The notes beneath the pieces are model-generated. The model did not search any database. It saw only the letters and a program-made list of their open reading frames with translations, and was not told the DNA's origin. This document shows, one piece after another, positions 7,360 to 44,111 of a stretch of DNA of 64,000 nucleotides (positions are counted from its first letter, which is position 1; every line of letters starts with the position of its first letter). The stretch is from an uncultured Phycisphaerales bacterium (GTDB lineage Bacteria > Planctomycetota > Phycisphaerae > Phycisphaerales > UBA1924), in assembly GCA_937995595.1 (NCBI GenBank), contig CALKJW010000028.1:62001-126000 (forward strand), written 5' to 3'. A program made the position numbers and the translations under genes.

Positions 7360-7614
7360 CTACCGCGCGGGCTCGACCCGCGTGTTGCGGTCGAGGTTCA
7401 GCACCACCGTCTCGCCGTCGTCCTTGCGGAGTTCGAGGCGGTCGAGCCAGAGTTTGTCGTCCTTGGCGTGCGCGTACCACGAGCCGGTCTTCTGCTGCTC
7501 GAACTTCACCACGGTGCCCTCGACCGTGGTGGCGAACGAGCCGCTCAGCCGCGGCACCTGCTGGATGACGCGGACGCGCTGGCCGGGCGTGTACAGGGCG
7601 TTGCCGGAGATCAT
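7360..7614 (-). CDS. Small conserved-looking hypothetical protein
   Basis: This 84-residue protein begins MISGNALYTPGQRVRV. The sequence is rich in beta-forming residues, with a TVEGTVVKFEQQKTGSWYAH segment and no membrane helix or Cys. It looks like a small beta-barrel (SH3-like or KOW-like) fold, but this is a shape argument only. It lies between the lipoprotein gene, with which it converges, and the phage-like block, whose strand it shares. It could be the last gene of that block or an unrelated host gene. Base composition matches the surroundings. Confidence 0.65.
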   Translation of the reverse strand: MISGNALYTPGQRVRVIQQVPRLSGSFATTVEGTVVKFEQQKTGSWYAHAKDDKLWLDRLELRKDDGETVVLNLDRNTRVEPAR

Positions 7615-7684
7615 GGGCGGAGTGTATGCGGCACGACCCCGCGCACGGGCCGAACGCCGCGACCAGTCCGGGAACCCCGGCTCT

Positions 7685-8089
7685 CTACAGGAACCGCACG
7701 AACACCGCCCGGTAGGCCAGCGACCGCAACCGCCCGCGGTCGATCCGCCCGCCCGTTCCCGCGGCCCCGCCCGTCGCCTCCAGCGGCTCGAACCGCACGA
7801 ACGACATGTTGTCCCACGTCCGGCCGTGGTGGTCGATCAGCGCCGCCGTCACCGGCGGGTCGGTCAGTTGCGCGGCGATCGTGTCGCGAAGCGACCACAG
7901 CCCGCCCTCGGTCGCCGATACCAGGCGCCCCGTCAACACCACGACCAGTTCCAGCGGCCCCGCGGCGATCGAGCCCGGCACGACCGGGTTCAGCGCGGCG
8001 TTGGGCACCACCAGTTCGCCGATCGCCCGCACGCCGAAGCGGTGCGGGCCGGAGTTGAACAGTCCCAGCGAGTTGAAGAAACTGGCCAT
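7685..8089 (-). CDS. Phage-block protein, possible tail or neck component
   Basis: This 134-residue protein has start MASFFNSLG at 8089, with GGAG ten bases upstream on the minus strand. It contains a beta-rich pattern (PLELVVVLTGRLVS, then SLRDTIAAQL, then WDNMSFVRFEPL) and ends SLAYRAVFVRFL. Two features recall small neck/tail-completion proteins: length about 130, and a place in gene order after portal, capsid and connector. No family motif can be named from sequence alone. It is the most distal gene of the virion block. Codon use is host-like and there are no internal stops. Confidence 0.6.
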   Translation of the reverse strand: MASFFNSLGLFNSGPHRFGVRAIGELVVPNAALNPVVPGSIAAGPLELVVVLTGRLVSATEGGLWSLRDTIAAQLTDPPVTAALIDHHGRTWDNMSFVRFEPLEATGGAAGTGGRIDRGRLRSLAYRAVFVRFL

Positions 8090-8534
8090 GAGAGTCTCCG
8101 GAACGAACTCGTACGCCTTCCCGATCAAACCCGTGCCGCGAAGAAAGTTCGAAAGACATGCACCGCAGAAGCGCGGAGAGCACCGAGCCATCAGGGATTT
8201 CGAACGCCTCGGAACTCGCGGTCGATCCTCTGTTCCTTCCGCCTTCTCTGCGTCCTCGGCGGGTCGGCGGTGAGTCCTGTCTCCGCCCGTCACGCCCGAG
8301 ACCGAGCGAGAGTCCGGATCAGAGAAGCGGGGCGAGCGGAGGACCGCGGAGCGTCAGAAAGTTGAACAAGCAGGTGCGATGTGGCCGGGCAGGGGCGCGT
8401 GATCAGGCGTTCGCCGGGGCAGCGGCCACTGAGCACCGGATCGACGGGCGCAACGCGCCGACGCGCCGACCCCGCACCCGCCCGCGCATCTCGCCCCGCT
8501 GCGCCCCGCTCGCTCTGCTTTCTGTGCGTTCCTC
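8090..8534. repeat. Gene-free spacer with decayed inverted repeats
   Basis: This 445-base gap splits the two last virion-block genes. Between about 8160 and 8275 it holds opposing copies of a degenerate repeat. One is CACCGCAGAAGCGCGGAG (8161-8178); the other, near 8240-8273, reads in complement CACCGCCGACCCGCCGAGG. Similar GCAGAG/CGCGGAG fragments occur in many spacers of this window. No open frame with a convincing ribosome site is seen here. It may mark the place where further phage genes were lost. Confidence 0.6.
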
Positions 8535-8945
8535 CTACTCCCAAACCGCGAACGGGTCCGCCGCGCCGTCGGTCGAGAGCGCGACCAGTTCGATGGTCTG
8601 CGTCGCCGTCGGGCCCTTGGCGCCGATGCCCAGTTCGTGCCGGACGCCGAGCACCACGCACGCCGCGCTGTGCGTGCGCCGACCCGCTTCGGTCGCCGCG
8701 GGCGAGACCTCGAACGCGAGCGTGCCGGCCTGCCCCGGCGTCGGCGCGGCCGGGTCGCCCCGGTCGAGCCGGCGCACGACGCGGACGGTGGTGCGCTGCT
8801 CGGGCACGTCGGCGAACGTCGGGTGCGGCCCCAGGTCCGTCCACTCCACCGCCTCGCGCGACGCGGCCCGGTCCACCGCGATCAGCGAGACGTCGGTCCA
8901 TTCCGTCGAGTCAAATCGCACCCGTTGCGGCGCAAACACCAGCAT
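8535..8945 (-). CDS. Phage-block protein, tail tube-like (tentative)
   Basis: This 136-residue protein starts MLVFAPQRVRF at 8945, after a strong AAGGAGGG site (complement of 8953-8960). It is all-beta in appearance: GTLAFEVSPAATEAGRRTH, then CVVLGVRHELG, then GPTATQTIELVALS. The size, the beta-sandwich pattern and the position after the head-tail connector fit a small tail tube or tail-decoration protein. I see no diagnostic motif, so this is a position-based guess. The 60-base gap to the connector gene implies co-transcription. Confidence 0.6.
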   Translation of the reverse strand: MLVFAPQRVRFDSTEWTDVSLIAVDRAASREAVEWTDLGPHPTFADVPEQRTTVRVVRRLDRGDPAAPTPGQAGTLAFEVSPAATEAGRRTHSAACVVLGVRHELGIGAKGPTATQTIELVALSTDGAADPFAVWE

Positions 8946-9005
8946 GACGGCCCTCCTTTCCGGGCGTGCCCCGCCGCCGCGCGGCCGGCGGAGACCGATG
9001 ACCAA

Positions 9006-9644
9006 CTACCCGCGCGTGACCATCGCCGCCGCGGCGCGGCGTTCGGCGTCGGCCACGCCGTCGCCGTTGAGGTCCAGCCGCGCGCGGGCGATCGCGCGGA
9101 TCGACGACGCGACGCGGTGGTACTGCGCGGCCCGCGCCGCCTGGGCCGAGCCCGGGCCTGCCAGCGCGCCCGCCGCGGCGTAGACCAGTTGCATCGCCAG
9201 CGCAGTCTCCAGCCCGCGCAGGTCGTCCGGGTTCACGATGCGCGTCTCGTCCGGCTCGCCCGGCGCGGCCAGGCCCGCCCGCGCGACGCCGAACATCGCC
9301 AGCACGGCGTCGTGCGCCGCGGCGATCTGCGGGGCGAACGTGAACACCACCGCCGGCGTCGAGCCCGCCGCGGGCGGCGGCAGGATCGGGCTCGTCCGCC
9401 GCGCGCGCAGCAGCGACACCGTCAGTTCCGTGTCGCTCAGACGCTCGACGACCTCCAGCGGCACGCCGCCGAACAGCACCACGCTCCCGGCGCCGATCCC
9501 CAGCGCGCCCAGTTGGCTCGACGCCGTCGTCAACTTGCCCGCGTTCAGCGTCGCGGTCGTCGACAGCAGGCGCTGGGCCAGGTACCCCAGGTCGCGGAAC
9601 AGGTCGGGCTCGACGGCCAGCAGGTCTCGGTCTGCGGTGAACAT
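9006..9644 (-). CDS. Head-tail connector/adaptor-like phage protein
   Basis: This 212-residue protein starts at ATG 9644, with AAGGA ten bases upstream on the minus strand. The N-terminal half is mixed (LGALGIGAGSVVLFGG, then ERLSDTELTVSLLRARR). The C-terminal half is helical: LRGLETALAMQLVYAAAG, followed by a segment ending RLDLNGDGVADAERR. Helical proteins of this length directly after the capsid gene are usually gp6-like head-tail connectors in tailed phages. DLNGDGVAD also resembles a calcium-binding dockerin-like loop, which may stabilise the fold. The assignment rests on gene order and pattern. The gene lies beyond the capsid terminator, so it may have its own promoter. Confidence 0.65.
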   Translation of the reverse strand: MFTADRDLLAVEPDLFRDLGYLAQRLLSTTATLNAGKLTTASSQLGALGIGAGSVVLFGGVPLEVVERLSDTELTVSLLRARRTSPILPPPAAGSTPAVVFTFAPQIAAAHDAVLAMFGVARAGLAAPGEPDETRIVNPDDLRGLETALAMQLVYAAAGALAGPGSAQAARAAQYHRVASSIRAIARARLDLNGDGVADAERRAAAAMVTRG

Positions 9645-9656
9645 GGGACGGTCCTT

Positions 9657-9720
9657 GAGTGCGGAGTGCGGAGTGCGGAGTGAGGGGGTGGGGGGTGAGG
9701 GGGGGTGGGTGGGGTGGGGG
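9657..9720. repeat. GAGTGCG tandem repeat followed by a G-run tract
   Basis: GAGTGCG occurs three times in tandem from 9657. It is followed at 9684-9720 by runs of five, six, seven, three, four and five G separated by T, TGA or TG. The plus strand could form a G-quadruplex; the minus-strand transcript is C-rich here. The tract sits just upstream of the ribosome site of the connector gene at 9644. It also lies downstream of the capsid terminator, so it could influence transcription or be a recombination-prone spot. Confidence 0.75.
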
Positions 9721-9784
9721 CGGCGCGATCGGCGGGGCCGGCCGTGCGCGTCGGCGCCTGCCCGCGTCGAAACTCGGTGTCAAA

Positions 9785-9814
9785 GGGCCCGGCTCCCCTT
9801 CGAGAGCCGGGCCC
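9785..9814 (-). terminator. Hairpin terminator after the capsid gene
   Basis: There is a perfect 11-bp stem, GGGCCCGGCTC (9785-9795) against GAGCCGGGCCC (9804-9814), with an 8-base loop. On the minus strand it is followed by TTT. It lies 21 bases beyond the stop of the capsid gene at 9835. It should uncouple capsid expression from the distal tail-like genes, as expected when the major capsid protein is needed in large amounts. Confidence 0.75.
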
Positions 9815-9834
9815 GGAGACGCGCCGCGTCCGTG

Positions 9835-11004
9835 TCACGAAGTCGCCAGACCCCGGATCAGCCCGTGCGCGTTCTCGTTCTTCATCTCCAGCGTGTACTC
9901 GCCCACGAGCATCCCGCTCTCGGCGTCGCCGGTCGCCGCCAGCGGCTTGTAGTGGAAACTCCGCCCCGCCAGCGGCAGCACGCTCAGCCGCGAGGAGTCC
10001 AGCAGCAGCACGTGGTCAGCCGGCACCCAGCGCGACAGCACCACGCGGCAGACGCCGAAGTCCGACTCGTACACGCCCACCAGCGAGCGGTACGACTCGT
10101 CGTCCGGCCCGTACAGCCGCGACGTCGAGAGGAACTCGTTGATCCGCCGCTTCTGCAGGCCCGAGCACACGATCGTGTCCACCCGCCCGGCCGACTGCTC
10201 CCAGATCAGCCGCAGCGCGGCGTTGAGCACCGGCTCGTTCAGCGCCGTGCCCGCCCCGCCGCCCGCCGGCACGCCGCCCTGCCCAGGCACGAACTGGTTG
10301 GTCGCGATCGTCGGGATGATCCCGTTCATCGTGCGACGCACGCTCGCCGAGCCCTGCTGCGTCGCCGTCGGCGCCACCCCGTTGACCACGCAGTTCTCAA
10401 GGTCGCGCAGCAGTTCGCGCAGCCGCTCCTGCTTCTGGTAGTCCGCCTCGTCGGCCACGCCGTGCGCCCGCGCCGCCTGCATCGACCCCGACACCTCCAC
10501 CGACGCGGTGAAGATCTGCGTGTAGTTGCGCCGGCGGACCCGGTCGGTGAACCGCGCCGCCGGTCGGTCGTCGCCCTCCAGCGCGGCGTTGCCCAGGATC
10601 GTCAGTTTCATCCCGTTGCTCAGCGCGCCGCCCGGCGTGTTCCCGTAGCGCCGGACCACCGTCAGCACGTTCCCCGCGACCGCCGACACGAACATCACCT
10701 CGCGCAGCCCCTCGGGCCGCACCTGGTCGCCGACGCGGAAGCGCGAGCCGTTGGCCACCGTGACCGCCGTGGCGTCCGTCGCGTTGGGCGTGAACGTCGT
10801 CTGGTTCACGCTGTCGGTGTTGGGCAGCAGGGCGTCCTCGATCCACTCGTGCACCGTGCTCAGCGCCGCGTGCGACGCGTCGCCCAGCGCGTCCAGCAGC
10901 GGCGTCTCGAACGGGCTGACGATGCCCACCACGTCCGACACGTCCTCCATCAGTTCCGGCAGAGTCGCCCCCGCCCCGTACGTCGCCTTTCCCGTAAACG
11001 GCAT
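9835..11004 (-). CDS. Phage major capsid protein, SU10/DUF5309 type
   Basis: This 389-residue HK97-fold-type capsid subunit starts MPFTGKATYG at 11004, preceded by AAAGGTGAGC. Recognisable features of the SU10-like/DUF5309 capsid family appear in order. These are a VVGIVSPFETPLLDALGD segment near residue 25; ALSTVHEWIEDALL; a small beta domain (GSRFRVGDQVRP to GNVLTVVRRYG); RRNYTQIFTASVEVSGSM; a helix with ELLRDLENCVVNG; and near the end YESDFGVCRVVLSRWVP and GEYTLEMKNENAHGLIRGL. All of it is in frame, full length and in host-like codon use. The next gene upstream is a short proline-rich protein and then the portal, the usual tailed-phage order. No separate protease gene is visible. Confidence 0.88.
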   Translation of the reverse strand: MPFTGKATYGAGATLPELMEDVSDVVGIVSPFETPLLDALGDASHAALSTVHEWIEDALLPNTDSVNQTTFTPNATDATAVTVANGSRFRVGDQVRPEGLREVMFVSAVAGNVLTVVRRYGNTPGGALSNGMKLTILGNAALEGDDRPAARFTDRVRRRNYTQIFTASVEVSGSMQAARAHGVADEADYQKQERLRELLRDLENCVVNGVAPTATQQGSASVRRTMNGIIPTIATNQFVPGQGGVPAGGGAGTALNEPVLNAALRLIWEQSAGRVDTIVCSGLQKRRINEFLSTSRLYGPDDESYRSLVGVYESDFGVCRVVLSRWVPADHVLLLDSSRLSVLPLAGRSFHYKPLAATGDAESGMLVGEYTLEMKNENAHGLIRGLATS

Positions 11005-11050
11005 GTGCTCACCTTTCATAAGAAGACCGCCACTCCGAACCACCCGCCCG

Positions 11051-11104
11051 ACTCAGCACCCAGGACTCAGGACTGAGCACCCAGGACCCAGCACCCCGCA
11101 CCCA
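11051..11104. repeat. CAGCACCCAGGACTCAG-type simple repeat
   Basis: This is a short array of the units ACTCAGCACCCAGG, ACTCAGGACTGAG and CACCCAGGACCCAGC. It lies in the spacer between the capsid and the small proline-rich gene. The same vocabulary recurs at about 27817-27857 and 39519-39600. It is non-coding here and interrupts an otherwise tight phage operon. Confidence 0.8.
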
Positions 11105-11107
11105 GAC

Positions 11108-11437
11108 TCACGTCCCCTCCGCCTCCCGCCGCGCACGCAGGTACGCCATCACCGCGCGGCTGTCGCCCGTCCGCGCCGCCGCCGACGCGGCTTCGGCCCG
11201 CGCCCGCTCGGCTCGGTCGGCCCGCTCCCGCGCCGACATCGCCCCCGACGGCGCGGGCGGCGGGGGGGGCGGCGGTGGGAGGGGCGTTGCCCGCTGCGCC
11301 GCGACCACCCGCTCGCCGATCTGCCCGATCTCCGCACGAAGCCCGCGGAGTTCCTCCATCACCCGGTCGGCCAGCGCCCGCTCGCCCGCGCCCTGCGCCG
11401 CCGTGTGCGCTCCGCCGCCCGTCGTTCCGTCGCTCAT
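11108..11437 (-). CDS. Small proline-rich phage-block protein, possible scaffold
   Basis: This 109-residue protein has an AGGAGA site seven bases before ATG 11437. Residues about 15-50 and 65-105 are strongly helical and rich in Arg, Glu and Ala. They flank a run of eight consecutive prolines in the middle. It lies between portal and capsid, the place of the scaffolding protein in many tailed phages. A short coiled-coil protein with a flexible linker fits that role, but no family motif is visible. The proline run (C/G homopolymer-like DNA at 11258-11283) could be length-variable. Confidence 0.55.
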   Translation of the reverse strand: MSDGTTGGGAHTAAQGAGERALADRVMEELRGLRAEIGQIGERVVAAQRATPLPPPPPPPPAPSGAMSARERADRAERARAEAASAAARTGDSRAVMAYLRARREAEGT

Positions 11438-11507
11438 GTTCGTTCTCCTGTGTGTGCACAGCGCCCGGCGCGCGGGCCGTCCGCGGCCCGCGCCGTCCCG
11501 GGCAGAC

Positions 11508-13082
11508 CTACATCACCCCCGCGTCGCGCGACCCGTACCCCAGTTCCGCCAGCACCCGCTCGCGCGGCACGCCCAGCGCGACCTTCCGCTCCGCCGCCAG
11601 CAGCGCGTCCTGCTCGTCCCGCGGCAGCGGGTCCGGCCACGCCAGGCTCAGCGCCCGGTCGCGCGGCTCGGTCCGCAGGATCCCCGCACGGTCCAGCGCG
11701 ACCAGCGCGAGGCGCGACGCCTCGACGATCCCGCGCCCGTACGTCTGCCGCTTCCGCGCAGTCCGGCTCAGCAGGCCCATCAGCGTCACGCGCAGCGCGT
11801 TGGCGCTCGACAGGTTCCCGATCCGCGCACGCACCACCCCCGCCGCCAGCGGCGGCACGCCGCTCGCCTTGTCCAGCGCCTCGCGGACCTCCTGCACGTG
11901 CGCCGCTTCCGACGGGCTCGCCGCGTCGCCCCCGAGCGACTCGATCGTCGCCTCCGGGTTGTCGGTCACGATCACCTGCCCCGGCCCCACGCGCACGCCC
12001 TCGACGCCCTCCAGGCCCTTGGCCAGCAGCATCTTGAACGACTGGAACGTCACGCGCGAGGCGCGGTCCGACAGCCGCGTGTTCAACTCGTCCTGCAGCG
12101 GGATCAGCGGCTCGACCTCGCCCAGCCCCTCCCACGCCAGCGGCTGCGCGATGTTCTGGATGTGCGCCACCGGCGGGGCCTCGCGCCGATCGCCCGCCGA
12201 CACCAGCGCGGGCCCGTCGAGCACCAGCCGCCAACCGGCCCGACGGCCCGCCTCGTCGCGCTCGAAGACGCGCCGGCGCGACCCGCTGAGCACCTCCAGA
12301 ACCAGCGTGCCGCGCGCGCCGGCGCGCGGCACGCCCTCCTCCGCCAGCCCGAGCCACCGACGCAGCAGCGACGGCGGTGCGCCCAGCGGCCCGCGCCCCG
12401 CCGCCGGCGACGTTCCCGCCTCCTCCTCGCGCCGCGTCACGATCAGGTACGCGTCCAGCACGCGATAGTCCGACGCCGACACCACCGGCACGCCGCGACG
12501 CGGCTCCACCGCCTCGATGCGAACCGCGCCCGCCGCGGCGTGCGCGACCGCCTCGTCGTCCGGTTCGTCCGCCGCCCCGCCCGCGCTCTCAACGCCACGC
12601 ACCACCAGGTCCACGTGCCCGTACACGTGCGCCATCAGCGCGGCGTCGTTGAGCAGCGCGGCCCCGCCCGAGGACTCCCACACCGCGTCCAGCGCACGCT
12701 CGATCCGCCGCGCCAGCGCGCCGTCCCGCGCGCCCGACACCACCCGCACCGGCCGCCCCAGCAGGAAGTCGATCATCGTGTGCACGCGCCACGCGATGTC
12801 GTTCTCGATCACGATCTCCTTGCGCTTCCACGCCCGGTCGTCCCACGGCCCAGCCGGGCCGACCAGCCGCGACGGCAGCCCCCGCTCCTGCGCCAGCCGG
12901 TACCCGCGCGACGACGGGTCGCGCTGTGTCTCGCGTCCGCCCAAGGCGCGCATCGGGTTGCGGTAGTAGTCCCACAGCGCGTCCAGCCGCGGCACAACGC
13001 TCCGCTCGTGCCGATCCAGCAGGTCCTCGACCCGCTCCCACGTGAGTCCCGCTTCCGCACACGGCGCATCGGTCTGGTGCAT
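11508..13082 (-). CDS. Phage portal protein, SPP1 gp6-like
   Basis: This 524-residue portal subunit belongs to the dodecameric ring through which DNA enters the head. The N-terminus WERVEDLLDRHERSVVPRL and YYRN, then WKRKEIVIENDIAWRVHTM and FLLGRPVRV, follow the SPP1-type portal pattern of an early amphipathic helix followed by N...R....D...G.P. The middle part (VPVVSASDYRVLDAYLI) is the wing/clip region. The segment HIQNIAQPLAWEGLGEVEPL leads to LQDELNTRLSDRASRVTFQ, the stem/core helices typical of the family. The start at 13082 has GGAGCGGAG upstream. Length is normal and uninterrupted. It is the first gene of the virion block, with a gene-free 711-base region before it. Confidence 0.85.
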   Translation of the reverse strand: MHQTDAPCAEAGLTWERVEDLLDRHERSVVPRLDALWDYYRNPMRALGGRETQRDPSSRGYRLAQERGLPSRLVGPAGPWDDRAWKRKEIVIENDIAWRVHTMIDFLLGRPVRVVSGARDGALARRIERALDAVWESSGGAALLNDAALMAHVYGHVDLVVRGVESAGGAADEPDDEAVAHAAAGAVRIEAVEPRRGVPVVSASDYRVLDAYLIVTRREEEAGTSPAAGRGPLGAPPSLLRRWLGLAEEGVPRAGARGTLVLEVLSGSRRRVFERDEAGRRAGWRLVLDGPALVSAGDRREAPPVAHIQNIAQPLAWEGLGEVEPLIPLQDELNTRLSDRASRVTFQSFKMLLAKGLEGVEGVRVGPGQVIVTDNPEATIESLGGDAASPSEAAHVQEVREALDKASGVPPLAAGVVRARIGNLSSANALRVTLMGLLSRTARKRQTYGRGIVEASRLALVALDRAGILRTEPRDRALSLAWPDPLPRDEQDALLAAERKVALGVPRERVLAELGYGSRDAGVM

Positions 13083-28187: not shown

Positions 28188-31100
28188 ATGGCGGGCGCAG
28201 CGAAGGGCAGGGAAGCGGGCAGGGCCGAAGGCCGGCACGGGGTGCCGGCCCACTCGATGCCGAGCGCGGTCGTCGCGCCCGACAGCCCGCTCGCCCAGTG
28301 GCTCAACCCCGACGGCTCGCCCAAGGACCTCGGCGTCGGGTTCGCGCACCTGCACCTGCACAGCGAGTACTCGCTGCTCGATGGCGGCAACCGCGTCGAC
28401 AAACTCGTCAGGCGCGTCAAGGAACTGGGCATGTGGTCGGTGGCCGTCACCGACCACGGCAACCTCTTCGGCGCGGCGAGTTTCTACCAGGCCGCGAAGG
28501 ACGCGGGCGTCGTCCCCATCCTCGGCGTCGAGGCCTACGTCACCCCGCCCGACCGCCCGCGTCAGGACCGTACCTACACCGGCGTTTCCGACGGCGGCTA
28601 CCACCTCGTGCTGCTGGCCGAAACGCAGGAAGGGTGGGACAACCTCGTCTACCTCTGCAGCGAGGCGTACCTCACGGGGTTCTACTTCAAGCCGCGGATC
28701 GACCGCGCCCTGCTCGCCGCGCACAGCGCGGGGCTGATCGCCATCAACGGGCACCTCGGCAGCGAGATCGGCGACCACCTGCTGAACTTCGAGCGCACGG
28801 GCGATGCCAAGTGGTGGGACAGGGCGATGGAGAGCGCGCTCTGGCACCGCGACACGTTCGGCGCGGGAGACGGCGACGCCGCGCGGGCGCGGTTCTTCGT
28901 CGAACTCCAGCACCACGTGCCCGAGCAGAACTCGATCAACAAGCACCTGGCGCGCCTGGCGCGCGAGGTCGGCGCGCCGCTGGTGTGCGACAACGACTCG
29001 CACTTCCTGCGGGCCGAGGACCACGACGCCCACGACACGCTGATCTGCATCTCGATGGGCAAGGTCAAGCACGACACCGAGCGCCTGCGCTACCCGGAGG
29101 AGTTGTACGTCAAGTCCCCCGCCGAGATGCGCGCGGTCTTCGAATCGAACTACGTCGGCGGCGAGTGGGCCCAGATCGGGCGCGAGGCCCTCGACAACAC
29201 CCTGCGGATCGCCGCGCGGTGCGCCATCGGCGGGGCCAGGCCGCCGATCGGCCAGAACCACGCGCCGATGGTGCGGGTGCAGCGAAGGAAAATCGCAGAG
29301 CCGCAGAGCGGCAAGGCGGCAGGTGGCATGAGGGCCGTTGAGCCGGGGGCGGGCGACGAGTGGGCGGGCATGCCCTCGTGGGACGAGCCGCGCTTCGCGG
29401 GCGACCTCACGGCGTGGTTCGCGGCGTACTGCGACGAGTTCGAGGTCGTCCCGCTGCGCTTCGACGACGACGCGAGCGCGGAGGAACGGCAGAGAATCAA
29501 CGCCGCGGCCAAGGCCGAGTGCGACCGCGCCCTCCGCATGCTGTCGGAGGCGGGGCTGGTCTGGCGGTACGGGCCTGAACCGGACGCCCCGCCGCGCCGA
29601 GGCGGGAACAACGACGACGGTTCGGACCAGCACCGCCGCACCCGCGACGACATCCGCACCCGCCTGGAGCGCGAACTGTCGATCCTGTGCGACAAGAACA
29701 TCTCCGCGTACTTCCTGATCGTCTGGGACTTTGTCAACTGGGGCCGCCAGCGCGGCATCCCGGCCAACGCGCGTGGCTCGGGCGTGGGCACGATGGTCGG
29801 CTACGTCCTGGGCCTGTCCAACGCCTGCCCGGTGCGCTACGGCCTGCTCTTCGAGCGCTTCACCGACCCCGACCGCTCCGAGTACCCCGACATCGACATC
29901 GACCTCTGCCAGGACGGCCGCGCCGCCGTCATCGACTACGTCCGACGCAAGTACGGGCACGTGGCGCAGATCATTACATTCGGGACGCTCAAGGCCCGCG
30001 CCGCGATCCGCGACGTGGCCCGCGTGCTCGCCGTGCCCCTGCCCGTCGCCGACAGAGTCGCCAAACTCGTCCCCGAGCAGCTCAACATCACGATCGACGA
30101 CGCGCTGGAGCAGGAGCCCGAACTCAGGAAGATCTACGAGGGCGACGCCGCGGCGATCGACAGACTGCACCAGAACCTGCCCGGCGGCCAGCGCGCCGAG
30201 GCGGGAACGCTGCGCGCCCTGATCGACAACGCCCGCACCATCGAGGGCCAGGCGCGCCACGCCAGCGTCCACGCCGCGGGCGTCATCGTCGCCACGCGCC
30301 CGCTCCACGAGATCGTCCCGCTCTACAAGCAGTCGGGCGCGGCCGAGCACGAGATCGTGACCCAGTGGGACGGGCCGACGTGCGAGAAGGTCGGCCTGCT
30401 CAAGATGGACTTCCTCGGCCTCCGAACGCTCAGCGTCATCGAGCGGTGCAAGAAACTCATCCGCGAGACGCTGGGCGAGGAGGAGATCTGGAGCGCCGTC
30501 GGGCGCGCCGATGATTACCGGCGCACGCTCGCCGCCCGGAGCACCGATGCCGCGGCGACGCAGGGCAGGGGCGAAAGGCATCCGACATCCGACGTCGCAC
30601 ACCCGACGTCGGTCCATCCGCTGGACCTGGAACGCCTGACCTACGACGACCCGAAGGTCTTCGAACTCTTCCAGCGCGCCGACACCACCGGCGTCTTCCA
30701 GTTCGAGTCCGGCGGCATGCGCCGCCTGCTGGTCGACATGCGCCCCGACCGGCTCGAGGACCTCATCGCGGCCAACGCGCTGTTCCGCCCCGGCCCGATG
30801 GACCTGATCCCCGACTACAACCGCCGCAAGCACGGGCAGGCCGAGGTCCCGCGCGTGCACCCGATCGTCGACCGCTACACCGCCGAGACCTACGGCGTGA
30901 TGGTCTACCAGGAGCAGGTCATGCAGATCGTGCACGGCCTGGGCGGCATCAAACTCCGCGACGCCTACACGCTCATCAAGAACATCAGCAAGAAGAAGCA
31001 CGACAAGATCGAGAAGGAGCGGCCCAGGTTCGTCGAGGGCGCGCAGAAGCAGGGCCTGAGCCGCGACGCCGCCGAGAGCCTGTTCGAACTCATCCTGAAG

Positions 31101-32780
31101 TTCGCCGGCTACGGCTTCAACAAGAGCCACTCGACCGGCTACGCCATCATCGCCTACCAGACCGCCTACCTCAAGACCTACTTCCCCAACCAGTACATGG
31201 CCGCCTTCCTGACCTACGAGAGCCAGGCGCAGAAGGTGGCCGACTGGATCCCCTACGTCGAGGACTGCCGCAAGACCCGGTTCACCAGCGGCAGGGTCGG
31301 CGTCGAGGTGCGCCCGCCCGACGTGAACCTCTCGCGCGAGGACTTCGCCGTCGTCTTCGAGGACGGCGAGCCGCGCGACGCCCAGCACGGGCACGTCCGC
31401 TTCGGCCTGCGGGCCATCAAGGGCGCGGGCGACCGGGCCATCGCCGCGATCGTCGAGGAACGCGAGACCGGCGAAAGCGGCGCGCAAAGAAAGTTCACCT
31501 CCCTCTTCGATTTCTGCGAGCGCGTCATGGCGCGGCTCGCGGCCCAGTCCGCCGCGGCCGGCGCCGGCGGCTCGGCCAGCGGGGGCGGCGGTGGGGGGGC
31601 CAACCTGCTCAACAAGACCACGCTCGAAGCGCTCATCAAGTGCGGCGCGATGGACTCGCTGCACCCGCCGTCGGGCCGCTCCCTCCGCGCCGCGATGTGC
31701 GCCAGCATCGAGGCGGCGATCTCCGCCGCGCAGAAGGTCGCGCAGGACAGGGCCGCGGGGCAGGGCGGCCTGTTCATGGGCGGCGGTGGCGGCGTCCCCG
31801 CGCCACGAGCCGACGCCAAGGCCGAGTCCGCGCTGCTGGCCAAGGCGACGCCCTGGAGCGAGAGCGAAACCCTCGCCAGGGAGAAGGAGGTCCTCGGCTT
31901 CTACGTTTCGAGCCACCCGCTCGAAGAATGGAGCGCGTGGACCAAGGTGTTCGTCACCGCCGGGTGCGACGCGGCCAAGGCGCTCCCGCACGATTCGCGC
32001 GTCGTGCTCGCCGGTCTCATCGGCTCGGTGCGGACGCTGATCGTCAAGTCCGGCCGCAGCGCGGGGCAGAAGATGGCGATCGTGCCGATCGAGGACCAGG
32101 GCGGCTCGATCGAGGCCGTGTTGTTTGCCGACCGCTACGCGCAGTTCGCCGACACGGTGCAGCCGGGCAACGCGGTGTTCGTCGTCGGCCGCGTCGATCG
32201 GTCACGCGCCGGCGGGGCGGGAGGATCGGCCGGCGCAAGCCACGCCGCGGGCGACGACGACGCGCACGCCGGCAGCGGCCGCGGCGGCGCGGGAGGCGGC
32301 GGCGGCGGGCAGCAGAACAACGTGCAGGTCATCGTCGACCGCGTGGTGCCGATCGACGGTGTGCCGCTGATGCCCGGAAAACTCTGGGTCCGCCTCGACG
32401 CCGAACGTCTCAACGGCGACGGCTCGCGGAAGATCAGGGAACTCGCCGCGATCATCCGCGCGGCGAGCCTCGGCGGCCGCGACGAACGCCTCGCCGCCGG
32501 CGCCGGCAACGCCGCGACGGCCCGCGCGCCCAGCGCCGAAGACCGTGCCGCGGCGTTCCCGCTCGATCTGGTCGTCGACCTCCCCCACCAGCGCGTGCGG
32601 CTGGAGGCCTCGCCGCACATGCGCGTGCGCCTGAGCGCGCCGATGGTGGCCGAACTCTCTCGCCACCTCGGCGACGGCTGCGTGCGCGTCGTCGGCGGCG
32701 TGACGGTCGAGACCATGGACGGCCGCGGAAACAGCAAGCCGTGGGCCAAGAAGCCCGCCGCGGCGGGCGCCGGGCGCTGA
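28188..32780 (+). CDS. dnaE: DNA polymerase III alpha subunit
   Basis: This 1530-residue replicative polymerase, against about 1160 in most bacteria, starts at 28188 or an inner ATG at 28257. Order: PHP domain from HLHLHSEYSLLDG (about residue 54) with VTDHGN; palm with PDIDIDLCQDGR (about residue 566) carrying catalytic Asp; RHASVHAAGVI; then fingers with FQFESGGM and RPGPMDLIP; helix-hairpin-helix; and an OB-fold near the end. The extra length comes from low-complexity inserts near residues 365-386 and 778-810. Their DNA contains the window's dispersed GCAGAG-type and CATCCGACATCCGACG units. Gly/Ala runs near 1120 and 1350 add more. The active-site motifs are intact, so the inserts are presumably loops. 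Confidence 0.95.
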   Translation: MAGAAKGREAGRAEGRHGVPAHSMPSAVVAPDSPLAQWLNPDGSPKDLGVGFAHLHLHSEYSLLDGGNRVDKLVRRVKELGMWSVAVTDHGNLFGAASFYQAAKDAGVVPILGVEAYVTPPDRPRQDRTYTGVSDGGYHLVLLAETQEGWDNLVYLCSEAYLTGFYFKPRIDRALLAAHSAGLIAINGHLGSEIGDHLLNFERTGDAKWWDRAMESALWHRDTFGAGDGDAARARFFVELQHHVPEQNSINKHLARLAREVGAPLVCDNDSHFLRAEDHDAHDTLICISMGKVKHDTERLRYPEELYVKSPAEMRAVFESNYVGGEWAQIGREALDNTLRIAARCAIGGARPPIGQNHAPMVRVQRRKIAEPQSGKAAGGMRAVEPGAGDEWAGMPSWDEPRFAGDLTAWFAAYCDEFEVVPLRFDDDASAEERQRINAAAKAECDRALRMLSEAGLVWRYGPEPDAPPRRGGNNDDGSDQHRRTRDDIRTRLERELSILCDKNISAYFLIVWDFVNWGRQRGIPANARGSGVGTMVGYVLGLSNACPVRYGLLFERFTDPDRSEYPDIDIDLCQDGRAAVIDYVRRKYGHVAQIITFGTLKARAAIRDVARVLAVPLPVADRVAKLVPEQLNITIDDALEQEPELRKIYEGDAAAIDRLHQNLPGGQRAEAGTLRALIDNARTIEGQARHASVHAAGVIVATRPLHEIVPLYKQSGAAEHEIVTQWDGPTCEKVGLLKMDFLGLRTLSVIERCKKLIRETLGEEEIWSAVGRADDYRRTLAARSTDAAATQGRGERHPTSDVAHPTSVHPLDLERLTYDDPKVFELFQRADTTGVFQFESGGMRRLLVDMRPDRLEDLIAANALFRPGPMDLIPDYNRRKHGQAEVPRVHPIVDRYTAETYGVMVYQEQVMQIVHGLGGIKLRDAYTLIKNISKKKHDKIEKERPRFVEGAQKQGLSRDAAESLFELILKFAGYGFNKSHSTGYAIIAYQTAYLKTYFPNQYMAAFLTYESQAQKVADWIPYVEDCRKTRFTSGRVGVEVRPPDVNLSREDFAVVFEDGEPRDAQHGHVRFGLRAIKGAGDRAIAAIVEERETGESGAQRKFTSLFDFCERVMARLAAQSAAAGAGGSASGGGGGGANLLNKTTLEALIKCGAMDSLHPPSGRSLRAAMCASIEAAISAAQKVAQDRAAGQGGLFMGGGGGVPAPRADAKAESALLAKATPWSESETLAREKEVLGFYVSSHPLEEWSAWTKVFVTAGCDAAKALPHDSRVVLAGLIGSVRTLIVKSGRSAGQKMAIVPIEDQGGSIEAVLFADRYAQFADTVQPGNAVFVVGRVDRSRAGGAGGSAGASHAAGDDDAHAGSGRGGAGGGGGGQQNNVQVIVDRVVPIDGVPLMPGKLWVRLDAERLNGDGSRKIRELAAIIRAASLGGRDERLAAGAGNAATARAPSAEDRAAAFPLDLVVDLPHQRVRLEASPHMRVRLSAPMVAELSRHLGDGCVRVVGGVTVETMDGRGNSKPWAKKPAAAGAGR

Positions 32781-39602: not shown

Positions 39603-41186
39603 CTACCACCTCCCCACGCGTTCCTTCCGAGCGCAATCCAGCGACAGCACCAGGTACCGCAGCGCGTCGCACGCGTGGTCGTGCCTGCCCTTCACCGGCT
39701 CGCGCGAGCGCGGGTCGCTCGCGTCGTAGTGGTACCGCCGAAGGCTCTCGATCAGCCGCACGCACCGCGCGTGCACGAGCAACCGCGCCGGCGCGTCGCC
39801 CCCGCCCAGCCGCGCCCGCACCAGCGCCACGCCCTCGGCCACGCGCGACCCGCGCGTCCGCACCCGCAGGCCCGCGCCGCGGATCAGTTCGCAGTCGGCC
39901 TTGCCCGTCTGCCGGCTCGCGGCGTTGCCCGCCGGGTCCGCCGCGACCCACGACACCATGCGGACCCCGCCCAGTTCCTCCGCCCAGCGCTTCATCACCG
40001 CCACGTGAGCCTCCAGCCGCGCCTGACGCGCCACGTGCTCGCGCTCGACCCACAGCACGTCCGCGTCGTCGACCCGCGCCAGCAGCAGCGCGGTCTCGTC
40101 GCGGAACCCGAAGTCGATCCCCATCACCCAGCGCACCGTCGGCCGGCCCGCCGAGACCCCCGGCGGCGCAGCGCCCTCGCCGAACACGTGCACCCGCGCG
40201 TCAAACTCCGGGTACACCAGGTCGCGCCTGGCCGGCTCGCGGCAGAGCATCTCGCTCGCCCACGTCGGCCCGTCCACCCGCACCTTCATCGCCCGCGCGT
40301 CCGCGATCCCAACGTGCCCCGGCGCCGTGCGACGCTTCGCCTCGCCGCGGCAGTCGTCCCACAGGTTGCACCCCTCGCACGACTCCTCCCGCCCGCACCG
40401 CGCCAGCACGTCGACCAGCCCCCAGCGGAACACCGGCGCGGGCCGGCCCGGCCGCGTCAGGTCCCACATCAGCCCGAACGGCCGGTGCATCGTCGAGAGC
40501 GCCTCCACCGCGCCGCGCGCCTCGGGCCCCCACGGCCCGTCGCACGGCATCGAGCGCGTCGTGAGTTGCACCGCGCTCCAGATCGCCGGCTCGAACAGGT
40601 CCACCTCGTCGCACCGCACCTTCTGCACGCGAACCCCGCGCACGCTCGTCTCCGACGCCGCCAGCACCTCCGCGCACGAACCGTTCACCAGCGCCACCCG
40701 CCGACGCGCCTGCGCCGCGCGCCCGCGACGCACCAGACCCGACAGCGCCGGCCGCTCGAACAGCGACCGCAGATGCCCCTGCATCCGCTCGCTCTGCTCC
40801 AGCGAGCCGCCGAGGATCCGCGCCTGCACGCCCGGCTTGTACACCAGGTCCAGCATCGTCGCCACCGCGCCAAGAAACGTCTTGCCCCCGCCGCGACAGG
40901 CCCACACCACGCAGTCCGCCGGCGCGCGGTCCCCCGCCGCGCCCGCGCCCCCTTCGAGCGATCCCTCTCGCCCCGAACGTCCGAAGCGCAGCCCCTCAAA
41001 GAACGTGTGCGCCAGGTACGACAGCGGCGCCGACGAGCCCGCCTCGATCGCCCGGTCGGGAACGTCGATCCCCAACGCGTCGCGAAGGACCAGCCGCAAC
41101 TCCGCCGGGTTCCGCGGCGGGTCGGCCGGGTCGATCGTCCACGTCTTCCTGCGCCGCGCCGCCGTGCCCCGCGTGCCCGTGTGCAT
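39603..41186 (-). CDS. terL: Phage terminase large subunit
   Basis: This 527-residue DNA-packaging motor starts at ATG 41186, three bases after the GNAT stop. The ATPase part has Walker A WACRGGGKTF (about 95-104) and Walker B VQKVRCDE (187-194). The nuclease part has GIDFGFRD with Asp358, ADPAGN with Asp417 and HDHACDALRYL with Asp503/Asp507. Both activities look intact. Between them, Cys264, Cys270, Cys273 and Cys279 form a C-x5-C-x2-C-x5-C cluster suited to Zn or an Fe-S centre. It is not next to portal, as it would be in a phage, but about 26 kb away; the base composition is host-like. Confidence 0.9.
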   Translation of the reverse strand: MHTGTRGTAARRRKTWTIDPADPPRNPAELRLVLRDALGIDVPDRAIEAGSSAPLSYLAHTFFEGLRFGRSGREGSLEGGAGAAGDRAPADCVVWACRGGGKTFLGAVATMLDLVYKPGVQARILGGSLEQSERMQGHLRSLFERPALSGLVRRGRAAQARRRVALVNGSCAEVLAASETSVRGVRVQKVRCDEVDLFEPAIWSAVQLTTRSMPCDGPWGPEARGAVEALSTMHRPFGLMWDLTRPGRPAPVFRWGLVDVLARCGREESCEGCNLWDDCRGEAKRRTAPGHVGIADARAMKVRVDGPTWASEMLCREPARRDLVYPEFDARVHVFGEGAAPPGVSAGRPTVRWVMGIDFGFRDETALLLARVDDADVLWVEREHVARQARLEAHVAVMKRWAEELGGVRMVSWVAADPAGNAASRQTGKADCELIRGAGLRVRTRGSRVAEGVALVRARLGGGDAPARLLVHARCVRLIESLRRYHYDASDPRSREPVKGRHDHACDALRYLVLSLDCARKERVGRW

Positions 41187-41189
41187 GTG

Positions 41190-41882
41190 TCAGCCCTCCC
41201 GTGTGCGCCCCTCGGCGTCGTGCCCGTACGCGCGCAGCGCCGCCGGCGAGGCGACGGCGCGTGCCGCGTGCTCGATCAGTTCCTCAAGCGGCGCGCCGAC
41301 CAGGCCGCGCGTGCCCCGCGCGTCGTTGGCCCAGCGGCGCAGGTCGCGCTCGATCCGACGCGCACGCCCCGCCACGCGCCCCGCGTCGAGCAACTCCCAC
41401 GGCGCGATCCCCGCGACCCGCAACGCGCGCCGCAGCGCAAGGTCGCGCACCGTGCGCGGCAGCCGCACCTCGCGCATCCCCGCCGCGCGGAACAGCCCGC
41501 ACGCCGCGCCCATCGCCGCGACCGCCTCCGTCCGGCGCGTCAGCGGCGCGCCCAGGTACGCCCGCACCAGCGACGTGCCGACGCCCAGCCCGCGCGCACG
41601 CGGATCGACGATCACGCGCGACACGCGCCGCACGTCCGCGTTCAGCCGCGCCGCGTCCGCGCGCCGGTCGCCGCCGGCGTAGTCGCCCGGCCACAGCCGC
41701 TCGCGCCACCGCCCGTTCAGCGTCGGATGCGACACCACCAGCACGCCGACCGTCTCGCCGCGCCACCGCGCCGCCAGCACGCGGCACACCGTCGCCGGGC
41801 GCGCCGCGCGGTAGTGCAGCGACGCCAGCGCGTCGTAGTCGCGCGGCCCGCCGTCGCCGATCTCAATCCCGCTCGCGCTCAT
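41190..41882 (-). CDS. GNAT acyltransferase in the packaging operon, possibly Mom-like
   Basis: This 230-residue protein starts MSASGIEIGD at 41882, overlapping the ATPase stop by four bases. The GNAT core reads LHYRAARPATVCRVL, then GETVGVLVVSHP, then RVSRVIVDPRARGLGVGTSL, where RGLGVG is the acyl-CoA pyrophosphate loop. FRAAGMREVRLP closes the core, and a helical C-terminal region of about 85 residues follows. The HY..xP segment near residue 23 and the phage setting recall the GNAT-fold phage Mu Mom enzyme that modifies adenine in DNA. That link is a hypothesis from pattern only. Protein or antibiotic acetylation is the alternative. Confidence 0.8.
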   Translation of the reverse strand: MSASGIEIGDGGPRDYDALASLHYRAARPATVCRVLAARWRGETVGVLVVSHPTLNGRWRERLWPGDYAGGDRRADAARLNADVRRVSRVIVDPRARGLGVGTSLVRAYLGAPLTRRTEAVAAMGAACGLFRAAGMREVRLPRTVRDLALRRALRVAGIAPWELLDAGRVAGRARRIERDLRRWANDARGTRGLVGAPLEELIEHAARAVASPAALRAYGHDAEGRTREG

Positions 41883-42526
41883 CGCGCCGCCGCTCCCGCG
41901 CGCAGGGCGACCACGCGCCACCGCGACATGCCCCGCGCCATCGCCGCCACGTCGTCCCGCGCCGAAGCGCCCGCCAGAACCAGCCCCGGCGTCCGCGCGC
42001 AGACCGACGCCGCGCCCGACAGCACCCCCAGCGCAGCCAACGCGTCCAGCCCACCGCACAACTCGTCGGCGATCACCAGCGTCCGCGCCACGCTCCCGCG
42101 CGTCCCGCGGCACAGCGCGACGCACAGCGCCAGCCGCCAGCGCTGACCCTCCGACATCCGGCACGCGGGCGTGGCCAGCAGCGACGCGTCCGACAGCCCG
42201 CACCGCGACAGCAGCGCGAGCATCGGCATCACGCCCCGCCGCAGGATCTCCGGCGGCGTCCGGGCGTCGCGCTCCAGCGCCGCGGCCCGAACCCGCACCA
42301 CGCGCGTGCCCCGCGCACGCTCCCGCCGCGCCAGCGCGGCAAGCGCCGTGCTCTTGCCCGACCCGCTCGGCCCCGCGAGCAGCACGCACGGGGCAACCGC
42401 CAGCGCCCCCGCGGCCTGCCCCGCCGCAGCCAGCCCGCTCGGCGCGCGGCCGGCCCGCGCCGCCGGAAGGCCGAACACCGCCAGCGCCCGCAGCGTGCGC
42501 TCCGACACCGCCCGCGTGCAGGTCAT
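41879..42526 (-). CDS. Soluble ABC-class ATPase in the packaging operon
   Basis: This 215-residue protein starts at ATG 42526, overlapping the HTH gene stop as ATGA. Walker A is GPSGSGKST (52-60), the signature is MSEGQ (124-128) and Walker B is LVIADE (150-155), so all ABC nucleotide-binding motifs are present. There is no membrane segment or exporter partner. Its neighbour is a GNAT. COG2401 is described as an ABC-type ATPase fused to a predicted acetyltransferase, so this pair looks like the split form of that architecture. A DNA- or terminase-associated role is inferred from the operon. Confidence 0.82.
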   Translation of the reverse strand: MTCTRAVSERTLRALAVFGLPAARAGRAPSGLAAAGQAAGALAVAPCVLLAGPSGSGKSTALAALARRERARGTRVVRVRAAALERDARTPPEILRRGVMPMLALLSRCGLSDASLLATPACRMSEGQRWRLALCVALCRGTRGSVARTLVIADELCGGLDALAALGVLSGAASVCARTPGLVLAGASARDDVAAMARGMSRWRVVALRAGAAAR

Positions 42527-43146
42527 CGCACGCCCCCCGCGCCCCGGGCGTGCCCGTCGCGCCGCGCCGTGGCCCACCACTCCGCCGCCAACTCGCGCAG
42601 CGTCCGCACCTGCCGCAGCACCGCGCGCAGGTTCTCGCCGCTGCTCGCCGCGGCACGGCGCGCCGACATCCCGCGCAGCACGCACATCTCCGCCGCGACG
42701 CGGCGCGACCGGCTCCACTCCGCCGGCCAGGCCCGCGCGCCTTGCGCGACCGGGTCGTCCCGGTCGTGCCGGCCCGTGCGCGGCGCCGGCGCCGCCGCCG
42801 CCGCGCCCATCCGTCGCGCAGCGACAAACGCGAACGCCGGATCGCTCATCCGCGCCAGCATCCCGCGCACCCGTCGCCGAACCGTCGACGCCGGCACGCC
42901 GCACAGCCGCGCAACCTGCGCGATCGACCGGCCCTCGCGCAGCACCTCCAGCACCAACGCGCGCTCGTGCTCCGGCAAAAACGCCGCGAGCGCCTCCATC
43001 CGCCCGCACTCGGCCGTCCCCAGCGCGGCCCGCACGCTCGGCTTTAGCGGAGCGATCCGCACCGAATCGCTCGACCACCCCTTGCCGCAGTGGACGGTAT
43101 GTGTTAGGATGTTCTGACGATCAGCGAGTGTTGCCGCGGCCTGCAT
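42523..43146 (-). CDS. Double helix-turn-helix DNA-binding protein, possible TerS/regulator
   Basis: This 207-residue protein starts at ATG 43146 with GGAGGG eight bases upstream. Residues about 51-92 resemble sigma-factor region 4: LPEHERALVLEVLREG, then AQVARLCGVPASTVRRRV. A second, weaker HTH lies at about 150-190 (SRRVAAEMCVLRGMSARRAA). An HTH protein as first gene of an operon that ends with terL is the normal place of the small terminase subunit, which recognises packaging sites. A sigma-like transcription factor is equally possible. Expression starts from the divergent control region at 43147-43229. Confidence 0.72.
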   Translation of the reverse strand: MQAAATLADRQNILTHTVHCGKGWSSDSVRIAPLKPSVRAALGTAECGRMEALAAFLPEHERALVLEVLREGRSIAQVARLCGVPASTVRRRVRGMLARMSDPAFAFVAARRMGAAAAAPAPRTGRHDRDDPVAQGARAWPAEWSRSRRVAAEMCVLRGMSARRAAASSGENLRAVLRQVRTLRELAAEWWATARRDGHARGAGGVR

Positions 43147-43183: not shown

Positions 43184-43229
43184 TTGGTGAACTTCCGAGT
43201 CAGTGTACCAAACAGAAACCATACTGCAA
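43184..43229. promoter_or_regulatory. Divergent promoter and putative repressor operator
   Basis: On the minus strand, TTGCAG (43229-43224), a 16-base spacer and TACACT (43207-43202) make a good sigma-70 promoter for the HTH-ATPase-GNAT-terminase operon. The same DNA holds an imperfect dyad TTGGTGAAC (43184-43192) against GTGTACCAA (43203-43211), 7 of 9 matching. The dyad covers the -10 box and the GTG start of the repressor. A dimeric XRE repressor bound here would shut off the packaging operon and touch its own start. The plus-strand promoter is less clear. Confidence 0.5.
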
Positions 43230-44111
43230 GTGCCTGCACGTCTTCCCAGCCCCGCGCACGACCCCGACCCCGCCGACACGGGGCGGGTCATCCGCGCCGC
43301 GCGAACGCGCAAAGGCATGACACTGCAGGAGTTGGCCGACAAGGCCGGGTGCGGCAGATCCTACCTGTCGCAACTCGAAAACCGCCACAAACCCGGCGCG
43401 GGCGTCGATCACGGCCTGCTCGCACGCATCGAGTCCGCGCTCGACCTCGCGCCAGGCACGCTCGTGTTCACCTCGCAGTGGGAAGCCACGCCCGGGCCCG
43501 TTCGCCGCGAGGTCGCGCGGGCCGAGGCCGAACGCCGCGCCGCCGCGGACCAACTCCGCCGACTGCTGCACGCCAACGCGCCCGGCTCGCTCGACGAACT
43601 GCACCGCTCCGGCCGTCTGCGCGCCCTCATCGACCGGATCGCCGGCGACCACGCGACCCGCGAACTCGACCTCGTCGGCGCGGCGGTCCAGGTCCCGCTG
43701 ATCAACTCAGTCGCCGCGGGCTATCCGACCGACTTCACCGACCTCGGCTACCCCGCGCGCGTCGCCGACGAGTACGTCCGCGTGCCCGACGTGCGCGACC
43801 CCGACGCCTTCGCCGCGCGGGTCGTCGGCGACTCGATGCTCCCCGACTACCGCGAGGGCGACATCGTCGTCTTCAGCCCCATGCGCGACCTGCGCGACGG
43901 CATGGACTGCTTCGTGCGCCTCGAGCCCGACCACCAGACGACCTTCAAGCGCGTCTTCTTCGAGTCCGGCCCGCGCGCCGGGAGCGGCGAGGACGGGTGC
44001 GGCCAGATGATCCGCCTGCAGCCGCTCAACCCACGCTACGCGCCGATGGTTGTCCCGCGCGAGCGCGTCGCGGGCCTCTACGCCGCCGTCAGCGTCACAC
44101 GCATGGTCTGA
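43203..44111 (+). CDS. XRE-family repressor with self-cleaving S24 peptidase domain
   Basis: About 302 residues from GTG 43203 (a start at GTG 43230 is possible). The N-terminal HTH (about 28-65) reads RKGMTLQELADKAGCGRSYL. The C-terminal LexA/CI-type domain has the cleavage bond Ala172-Gly173 in SVAAGYP, catalytic Ser211 in GDSMLPDY and Lys249 in TTFKRVF. All three parts are present, so RecA-stimulated self-cleavage after DNA damage is expected. It is divergent from the terminase operon, the layout of a lysogeny switch. Length exceeds LexA (about 200) because of a helical linker at about 100-150. It is not the usual LexA fold at its N-terminus. Confidence 0.87.
   Translation: MYQTETILQVPARLPSPAHDPDPADTGRVIRAARTRKGMTLQELADKAGCGRSYLSQLENRHKPGAGVDHGLLARIESALDLAPGTLVFTSQWEATPGPVRREVARAEAERRAAADQLRRLLHANAPGSLDELHRSGRLRALIDRIAGDHATRELDLVGAAVQVPLINSVAAGYPTDFTDLGYPARVADEYVRVPDVRDPDAFAARVVGDSMLPDYREGDIVVFSPMRDLRDGMDCFVRLEPDHQTTFKRVFFESGPRAGSGEDGCGQMIRLQPLNPRYAPMVVPRERVAGLYAAVSVTRMV

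Follow-up and report, generated by a model that had tools for sequence, protein, structure and literature searches.

In the window, a stretch of 64,000 nucleotides (contig C28, positions 62001–126000, of a 3.1-Mb bacterial genome of the Phycisphaerae, Planctomycetota), a GNAT-fold acyltransferase and a soluble ABC-type ATPase are encoded directly upstream of the terminase large subunit (TerL). The packaging operon that contains them is of phage origin, and the pair is very probably a functional part of the packaging machine. There is an even chance that the two proteins constitute the DNA-marking step of this operon, which is predicted to be a packaging-coupled acylation of DNA.

The GNAT-ABC pair and its operon

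On the minus strand, the genes of the HTH protein, the ABC ATPase, the GNAT and TerL follow each other in a tight operon that is divergent from an S24 repressor gene (Table 1). The ABC gene (42526–41879) and the GNAT gene (41882–41190) share the bases ATGA at 41879–41882. A four-base overlap is also present between the HTH gene (43146–42523) and the ABC gene, and three bases separate the stop codon of the GNAT gene from the start of TerL at 41186. Both open reading frames and their overlap between the HTH protein and TerL are as described in the initial annotation.

Table 1. Features of the packaging operon and of the head-gene cluster in the window
Feature	Position	Strand	Basis
Major capsid protein, SU10 type	9835..11043	-	PF17236, E 1.9e-86
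Small ORF between portal and capsid, scaffold-like by position only	11108..11437	-	
Portal, SPP1 Gp6-like	11508..13082	-	PF05133, E 2.3e-9
TerL, terminase large subunit, Terminase_6C nuclease domain, single copy in the genome	39603..41186	-	
GNAT-fold acyltransferase, 230 aa, basic; invariant H23-Y24, R60, R89, P94, R97, E119, G135	41190..41882	-	Profile matches and AlphaFold model
Soluble ABC-type ATPase, 215 aa; Walker A, signature MSEGQ, Walker B; without the H-loop His	41879..42526	-	
HTH protein, first gene of the operon; start codon uncertain	42523..43146	-	Sigma70_r4_2/HTH_23
S24/CI-like repressor, divergent	43203..44111	+	

The Terminase_6C match of TerL has an E-value of 1e-7. The divergent S24/CI-like repressor is present in 40/56 relatives with sufficient upstream DNA and is probably the switch of the operon. 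The HTH protein (window 42523–43146) has Sigma70_r4_2 and HTH_23 matches, and its relatives are ~140 residues long with two HTH segments. This sigma-region-4-like protein is kept as the first gene of the operon in the relatives and may be a second regulator. Downstream of TerL lies an ordinary RarA/MgsA gene. Neither an Rfam RNA nor a convincing operator palindrome was found at the locus.

The ABC ATPase matches ABC_tran above the Pfam cut-off (E 3.4e-7). Its motifs had been described as complete. This is correct for Walker A (GPSGSGKS), the signature (MSEGQ) and Walker B with the D-loop (VIADELCGGLD), but the H-loop histidine is missing: the window protein reads GASARDDV where 62 of 75 relatives have His (ATTHDDL). 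No membrane partner for this soluble ATPase is encoded within the operon.

The GNAT is marginal in Pfam (19.4 bits with a cut-off of 20.7) and its best PHROG is phrog_886 (E 1.4e-7). The AlphaFold model (pLDDT 87) displays a GNAT fold, and the acyl-CoA motif A (RxxGxG/A) reads RGLGVG. Modelled fold and motif A together place the protein in the GNAT superfamily. All eight invariant residues of the family are retained in the window protein (H23, Y24, R60, R89, P94, R97, E119 and G135), which deviates at F130, a position conserved elsewhere. The HY-containing segment pointed out in the initial annotation is real and invariant, with H23-Y24 found in 79/79 GNATs. The phage set, read against the profile alignment, has the same invariants except P94. 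The median charge is +10.8 for the GNATs, +9.0 for the phage GNATs and +14.8 for Mom; the ABC partner, unlike the GNAT, is not basic.

Loci were collected from 20-kb regions around TerL and from a scan of 84,980 species, and the relatives are Phycisphaerae according to their organism titles. The scan yielded 184 confirmed loci, of which the best 80 are nearly all labelled Planctomycetota. TerL is present in 55/392 genomes of the phylum, including all ten searched from the family of the window. The consensus order is S24 (divergent), HTH, ABC, GNAT, ParB-like, probable TerS and TerL. ABC lies immediately upstream of GNAT in 66 of the 70 loci that extend far enough, and TerL is located downstream of GNAT on the same strand in 44/50 loci. 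Since the GNAT-ABC arrangement is found again in dozens of genomes, it is far beyond chance. Every genome of the family has one copy of the pair; fused forms occur in four relatives (L037, L039, L047 and L063). In four members of the class (L049, L054, L055 and L057), the frame just upstream of TerL resembles RpiB (ribose-5-phosphate isomerase B), a name given by reading the sequence and an unusual neighbour for packaging genes.

Among 41 genomes of the class, the GNAT is present in 29/30 TerL-positive and 0/11 TerL-negative genomes, and the capsid gene in 28/30 and 0/11, respectively. The co-occurrence with TerL has Fisher P values of 3.8e-9 (GNAT) and 2.5e-8 (capsid), both of which ignore kinship. 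The distance matrices of GNAT and TerL correlate with r 0.83, a value reached by none of 999 permutations. A GNAT toxin-antitoxin system was considered and dropped, as no RHH antitoxin is present and the linkage to TerL and capsid is strict. In five genomes of the f8 family (G142, G157, G209, G261 and G388) the pair lies apart from TerL; in G142 it is located ~2 kb from the capsid gene.

A gene that most relatives have between GNAT and TerS encodes a ParB N-terminal domain (PF02195, E down to 4.5e-8). It is present in 71 relative loci (L032, L040, L041, L057 and L059 are examples with the gene between GNAT and TerL), and 15 loci, several of them from the window's own family, retain the C-terminal tail alone. 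In this family the tail survives on its own or fused to the probable TerS. No ParB-like gene is found near the pair of the window. Thus, the window holds a reduced version of the operon.

Phage counterparts and dispersed head genes

A search of IMG/VR with TerL gave no relatives. The window GNAT alone as a query had no phage match, whereas the less biased GNAT of a relative did match. Using the latter in tblastn, the pair was found in SSU5-like phage-plasmids, Pseudomonas phage nickie and Rhizobium and Stenotrophomonas phages, and the GNAT is carried by 905 plasmids. The order in the phages is ParB, ParB, ABC, GNAT, one or more small genes, a TerS-like DNA-binding protein, TerL, portal and then capsid. 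Planctomycete and phage GNAT profiles align at full length over 231 columns (probability 99.4%, E 1.2e-21) and the ABC profiles with a probability of 98%. By these profile comparisons, the GNAT and the adjoining ABC ATPase of the window are homologous to the phage pair (phrog_886 and its partner). SSU5-like phage-plasmids, Nickievirus and the Rhizobium phages have the homologous genes in the same order directly upstream of terS-terL. They differ from the window by two upstream ParB-like genes, which the window lacks, and by the portal and capsid genes right after TerL, whereas the head genes of the window are 30 kb away.

Fused ABC-GNAT proteins are encoded in IMG/VR contig L199. Pasteurella phage Pmp13, Leptospira phage LE4 and Gordonia phage Jace also have such a fusion, with a ParB-like gene as its neighbour. 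In Pmp13 and LE4 the fused gene shortly precedes the terminase genes. One phage homologue is annotated as 'MK0520 protein, ABC-type ATPase fused to a predicted ...'. The initial annotation had linked the pair to COG2401 as its fused form; such a fusion does exist in the virus contigs and in some relatives, and no paper naming COG2401 was found in the literature searched. The fused phage proteins with a COG2401-like annotation (Tenacibaculum phage pT24, LE4, Pmp13, Jace and IMG/VR contigs) consist of the same two domains, fused or adjacent, often with a ParB-like gene and a terminase nearby. In the window, on the other hand, there are two separate, overlapping genes. Furthermore, some viruses (including P12024S) carry the pair among replication rather than packaging genes.

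The portal/capsid cluster of the window is 30 kb from TerL, and a DNA polymerase gene (28188–32780) is among the intervening genes. HK97 portal and capsid models (PF04860 and PF05065) have no match in most genomes. This had led to the view that head genes are absent, which was overturned by the matches to an SU10 capsid and an SPP1 portal in the window. Within the region 7360–13082 (minus strand), the capsid gene is followed by small ORFs at 9006–9644, 8535–9005 and 7685–8293 without family matches, which are possibly connector genes. TerL and capsid are present in one copy each in nearly all genomes, at distances from ~10 kb (G331) to ~980 kb (G127).

Packaging and head genes are single-copy, dispersed and probably kept vertically, as in a gene transfer agent (GTA). 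Considering the co-occurrence of TerL, capsid and the pair together with head genes 30 kb away, the pair is part of a GTA-like element of the Phycisphaerae that is dispersed and single-copy. This element shares with GTAs of the RcGTA type the single-copy phage packaging and head genes that are dispersed on the chromosome and found class-wide. In contrast to RcGTA, it has an SU10 capsid and an SPP1 portal instead of the RcGTA set and a GNAT-ABC pair inside the packaging operon. In the literature searched, neither a link between GTAs and SU10 nor such an element in planctomycetes was found, and no earlier report places the pair in a GTA-like packaging operon that belongs to a dispersed chromosomal element found across the Phycisphaerae.

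The neighbourhood survey shows that the pair co-occurs with terminases in these genomes and elsewhere; the initial annotation had named a lack of co-occurrence as evidence against its proposal. It had also considered that a DNA-modification or DNA-loading step tied to packaging would be new for such particles. The link to packaging as such is not new, as the arrangement is the standard one in SSU5-like phages, but in the literature searched it is unreported for a dispersed chromosomal element spanning the Phycisphaerae.

Comparison with Mom

The DNA-modifying enzyme Mom of phage Mu had been proposed as a relative of the GNAT. Membership in the Mom family is unsupported. Alignment of the GNAT profile with nine Mom proteins by hhalign gave a probability of 2.3% over 43 columns, that of the phage GNATs with Mom a probability of 10.7%, and the profile comparisons revealed nothing past HY and a VGV strip. 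In the structure search, the GNAT model matches many GNATs with Z-scores of 10–11. The crystal structure of Mom (pdb entry 8bv8) is among these neighbours (Z 10.7, 130 aligned residues, 3.1 Å; best neighbour Z 11.2), yet it is no closer than Ard1 (Ard1/NatA), AAC(6') and RimI, which are amino-terminal, aminoglycoside and ribosomal-protein acetyltransferases, respectively. The search favoured neither a small-molecule or ribosomal-protein clade, which would have spoken against DNA modification, nor Mom.

Similarities to Mom are the GNAT fold, the HY that ends the first helix, the arginine of β4 and the basic charge. H58-Y59 and R111 are invariant in the nine Mom proteins and correspond to H23-Y24 and R89, an equivalence judged from secondary structure. 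The invariant Asp (SFAD) and Tyr (VYQ) of Mom, on the other hand, are absent from the GNAT, in which these segments carry M124 and F/L130-F131. The GNAT has an ABC partner, whereas Mom has none. Although it may act in a Mom-like manner, the GNAT is not a Mom. A Mom-like gene adjoins TerL in Bacillus phage Riggi and a ParB-like gene in Arthrobacter phage Sicarius2 (loci L113 and L115).

Possible function of the pair

A passage in Iyer et al. 2021 (PMC7824862) recounts a prediction, for which it cites the authors' own 2013 paper, of an uncharacterised acyl modification of a DNA base by a GNAT that is coupled with an ABC ATPase, and pT24 is named there as an example of this class. pT24 matches the GNAT-ABC family of the window across both domains. 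DNA modification, as suggested in the initial annotation, is therefore not a new idea for this pair; it is backed by the published prediction, whereas the route to it through the Mom family is not.

In the proposed mechanism, release of the S24 repressor would allow the HTH protein, ABC ATPase, GNAT and TerL to be made together, in most relatives along with the ParB/Srx-like protein and the probable TerS. The basic GNAT would bind DNA and, with an acyl-CoA as donor, acylate a nucleobase amine in the DNA that awaits packaging. The soluble ABC ATPase may assist by loading or positioning the GNAT on DNA at the expense of ATP. TerL would pump the DNA into SU10-type heads supplied by the portal/capsid cluster elsewhere on the chromosome, and the resulting particles would contain marked DNA. 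Such a mark may shield the cargo from the restriction systems of the recipient, a protection that Mom gives to phage Mu.

DNA marking is suggested by the operon overlap, the conserved order of pair and TerL, their co-occurrence, the correlated distance matrices (r 0.83) and the homologous phage pair ahead of the terminase. It is further suggested by the published class of predicted DNA-base acylation with its matching example pT24, by ParB-like genes that accompany both the pair and the Mom-like gene of Sicarius2, and by the basic charge of the GNAT (but not of the ABC ATPase) with an HY and a β4 arginine that match Mom invariants. Several observations argue against it. The Mom profile fails, the Asp and Tyr of Mom are absent and the fold is not closer to Mom than to protein or small-molecule GNATs. 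The lineage of the window has lost the ParB-like gene and the H-loop histidine. Finally, five genomes of the f8 family have the pair away from TerL and some viral pairs are in a replication context.

Alternatively, the GNAT could acetylate a protein (TerS, TerL, the portal, a nucleoid protein or the host RNA polymerase) and thereby switch or speed packaging, with the ABC ATPase regulating the GNAT. Ard1/NatA and RimI are structural neighbours with the same Z-score as Mom, and the near-perfect co-occurrence of the GNAT with TerL and capsid would agree with such a role. The GNAT is strongly basic, however, it has the HY in common with Mom, and both the ParB-like partners and the published assignment indicate DNA, which leaves protein acetylation unlikely. 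Selection or loading of DNA without base chemistry is also conceivable. The ABC ATPase and the ParB-like protein would then clamp DNA, with the GNAT fold either binding DNA or acting on TerS. The pair adjoins terS-terL in many phages, most relatives have the ParB-like gene, and the soluble ATPase lacks a membrane partner in the operon. Conservation of the acetyl-CoA motif RxxGxG/A and of the HY/R/E set across phylum and phages fits catalysis, though, and the window kept GNAT and ABC despite the loss of ParB. A loading role of this kind is accordingly rather improbable.

In the lineage of the window, the pair might instead be a passenger or decaying, with TerL working without it. The loss of the H-loop histidine and of the ParB-like gene and the deviation at F130 point in this direction. 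Against this, neither reading frame is interrupted, their starts overlap, the eight GNAT invariants are all in place and no genome of the family lacks its single copy of the pair. Decay is thus very unlikely.

If the GNAT does mark DNA during packing, the Phycisphaerae would possess a GTA-like machine that modifies its own cargo, and the survival of transferred host DNA in the face of restriction would have an explanation. A GTA-like system with its own DNA hypermodification enzyme, by which host DNA is marked only when packed and is thereby spared from restriction after transfer to a recipient, is a tentative proposal and somewhat doubtful. If true, DNA marking would provide a function for the GNAT-ABC pair of ~900 sequenced plasmids and several phage lineages, the chemistry of which has so far only been predicted.
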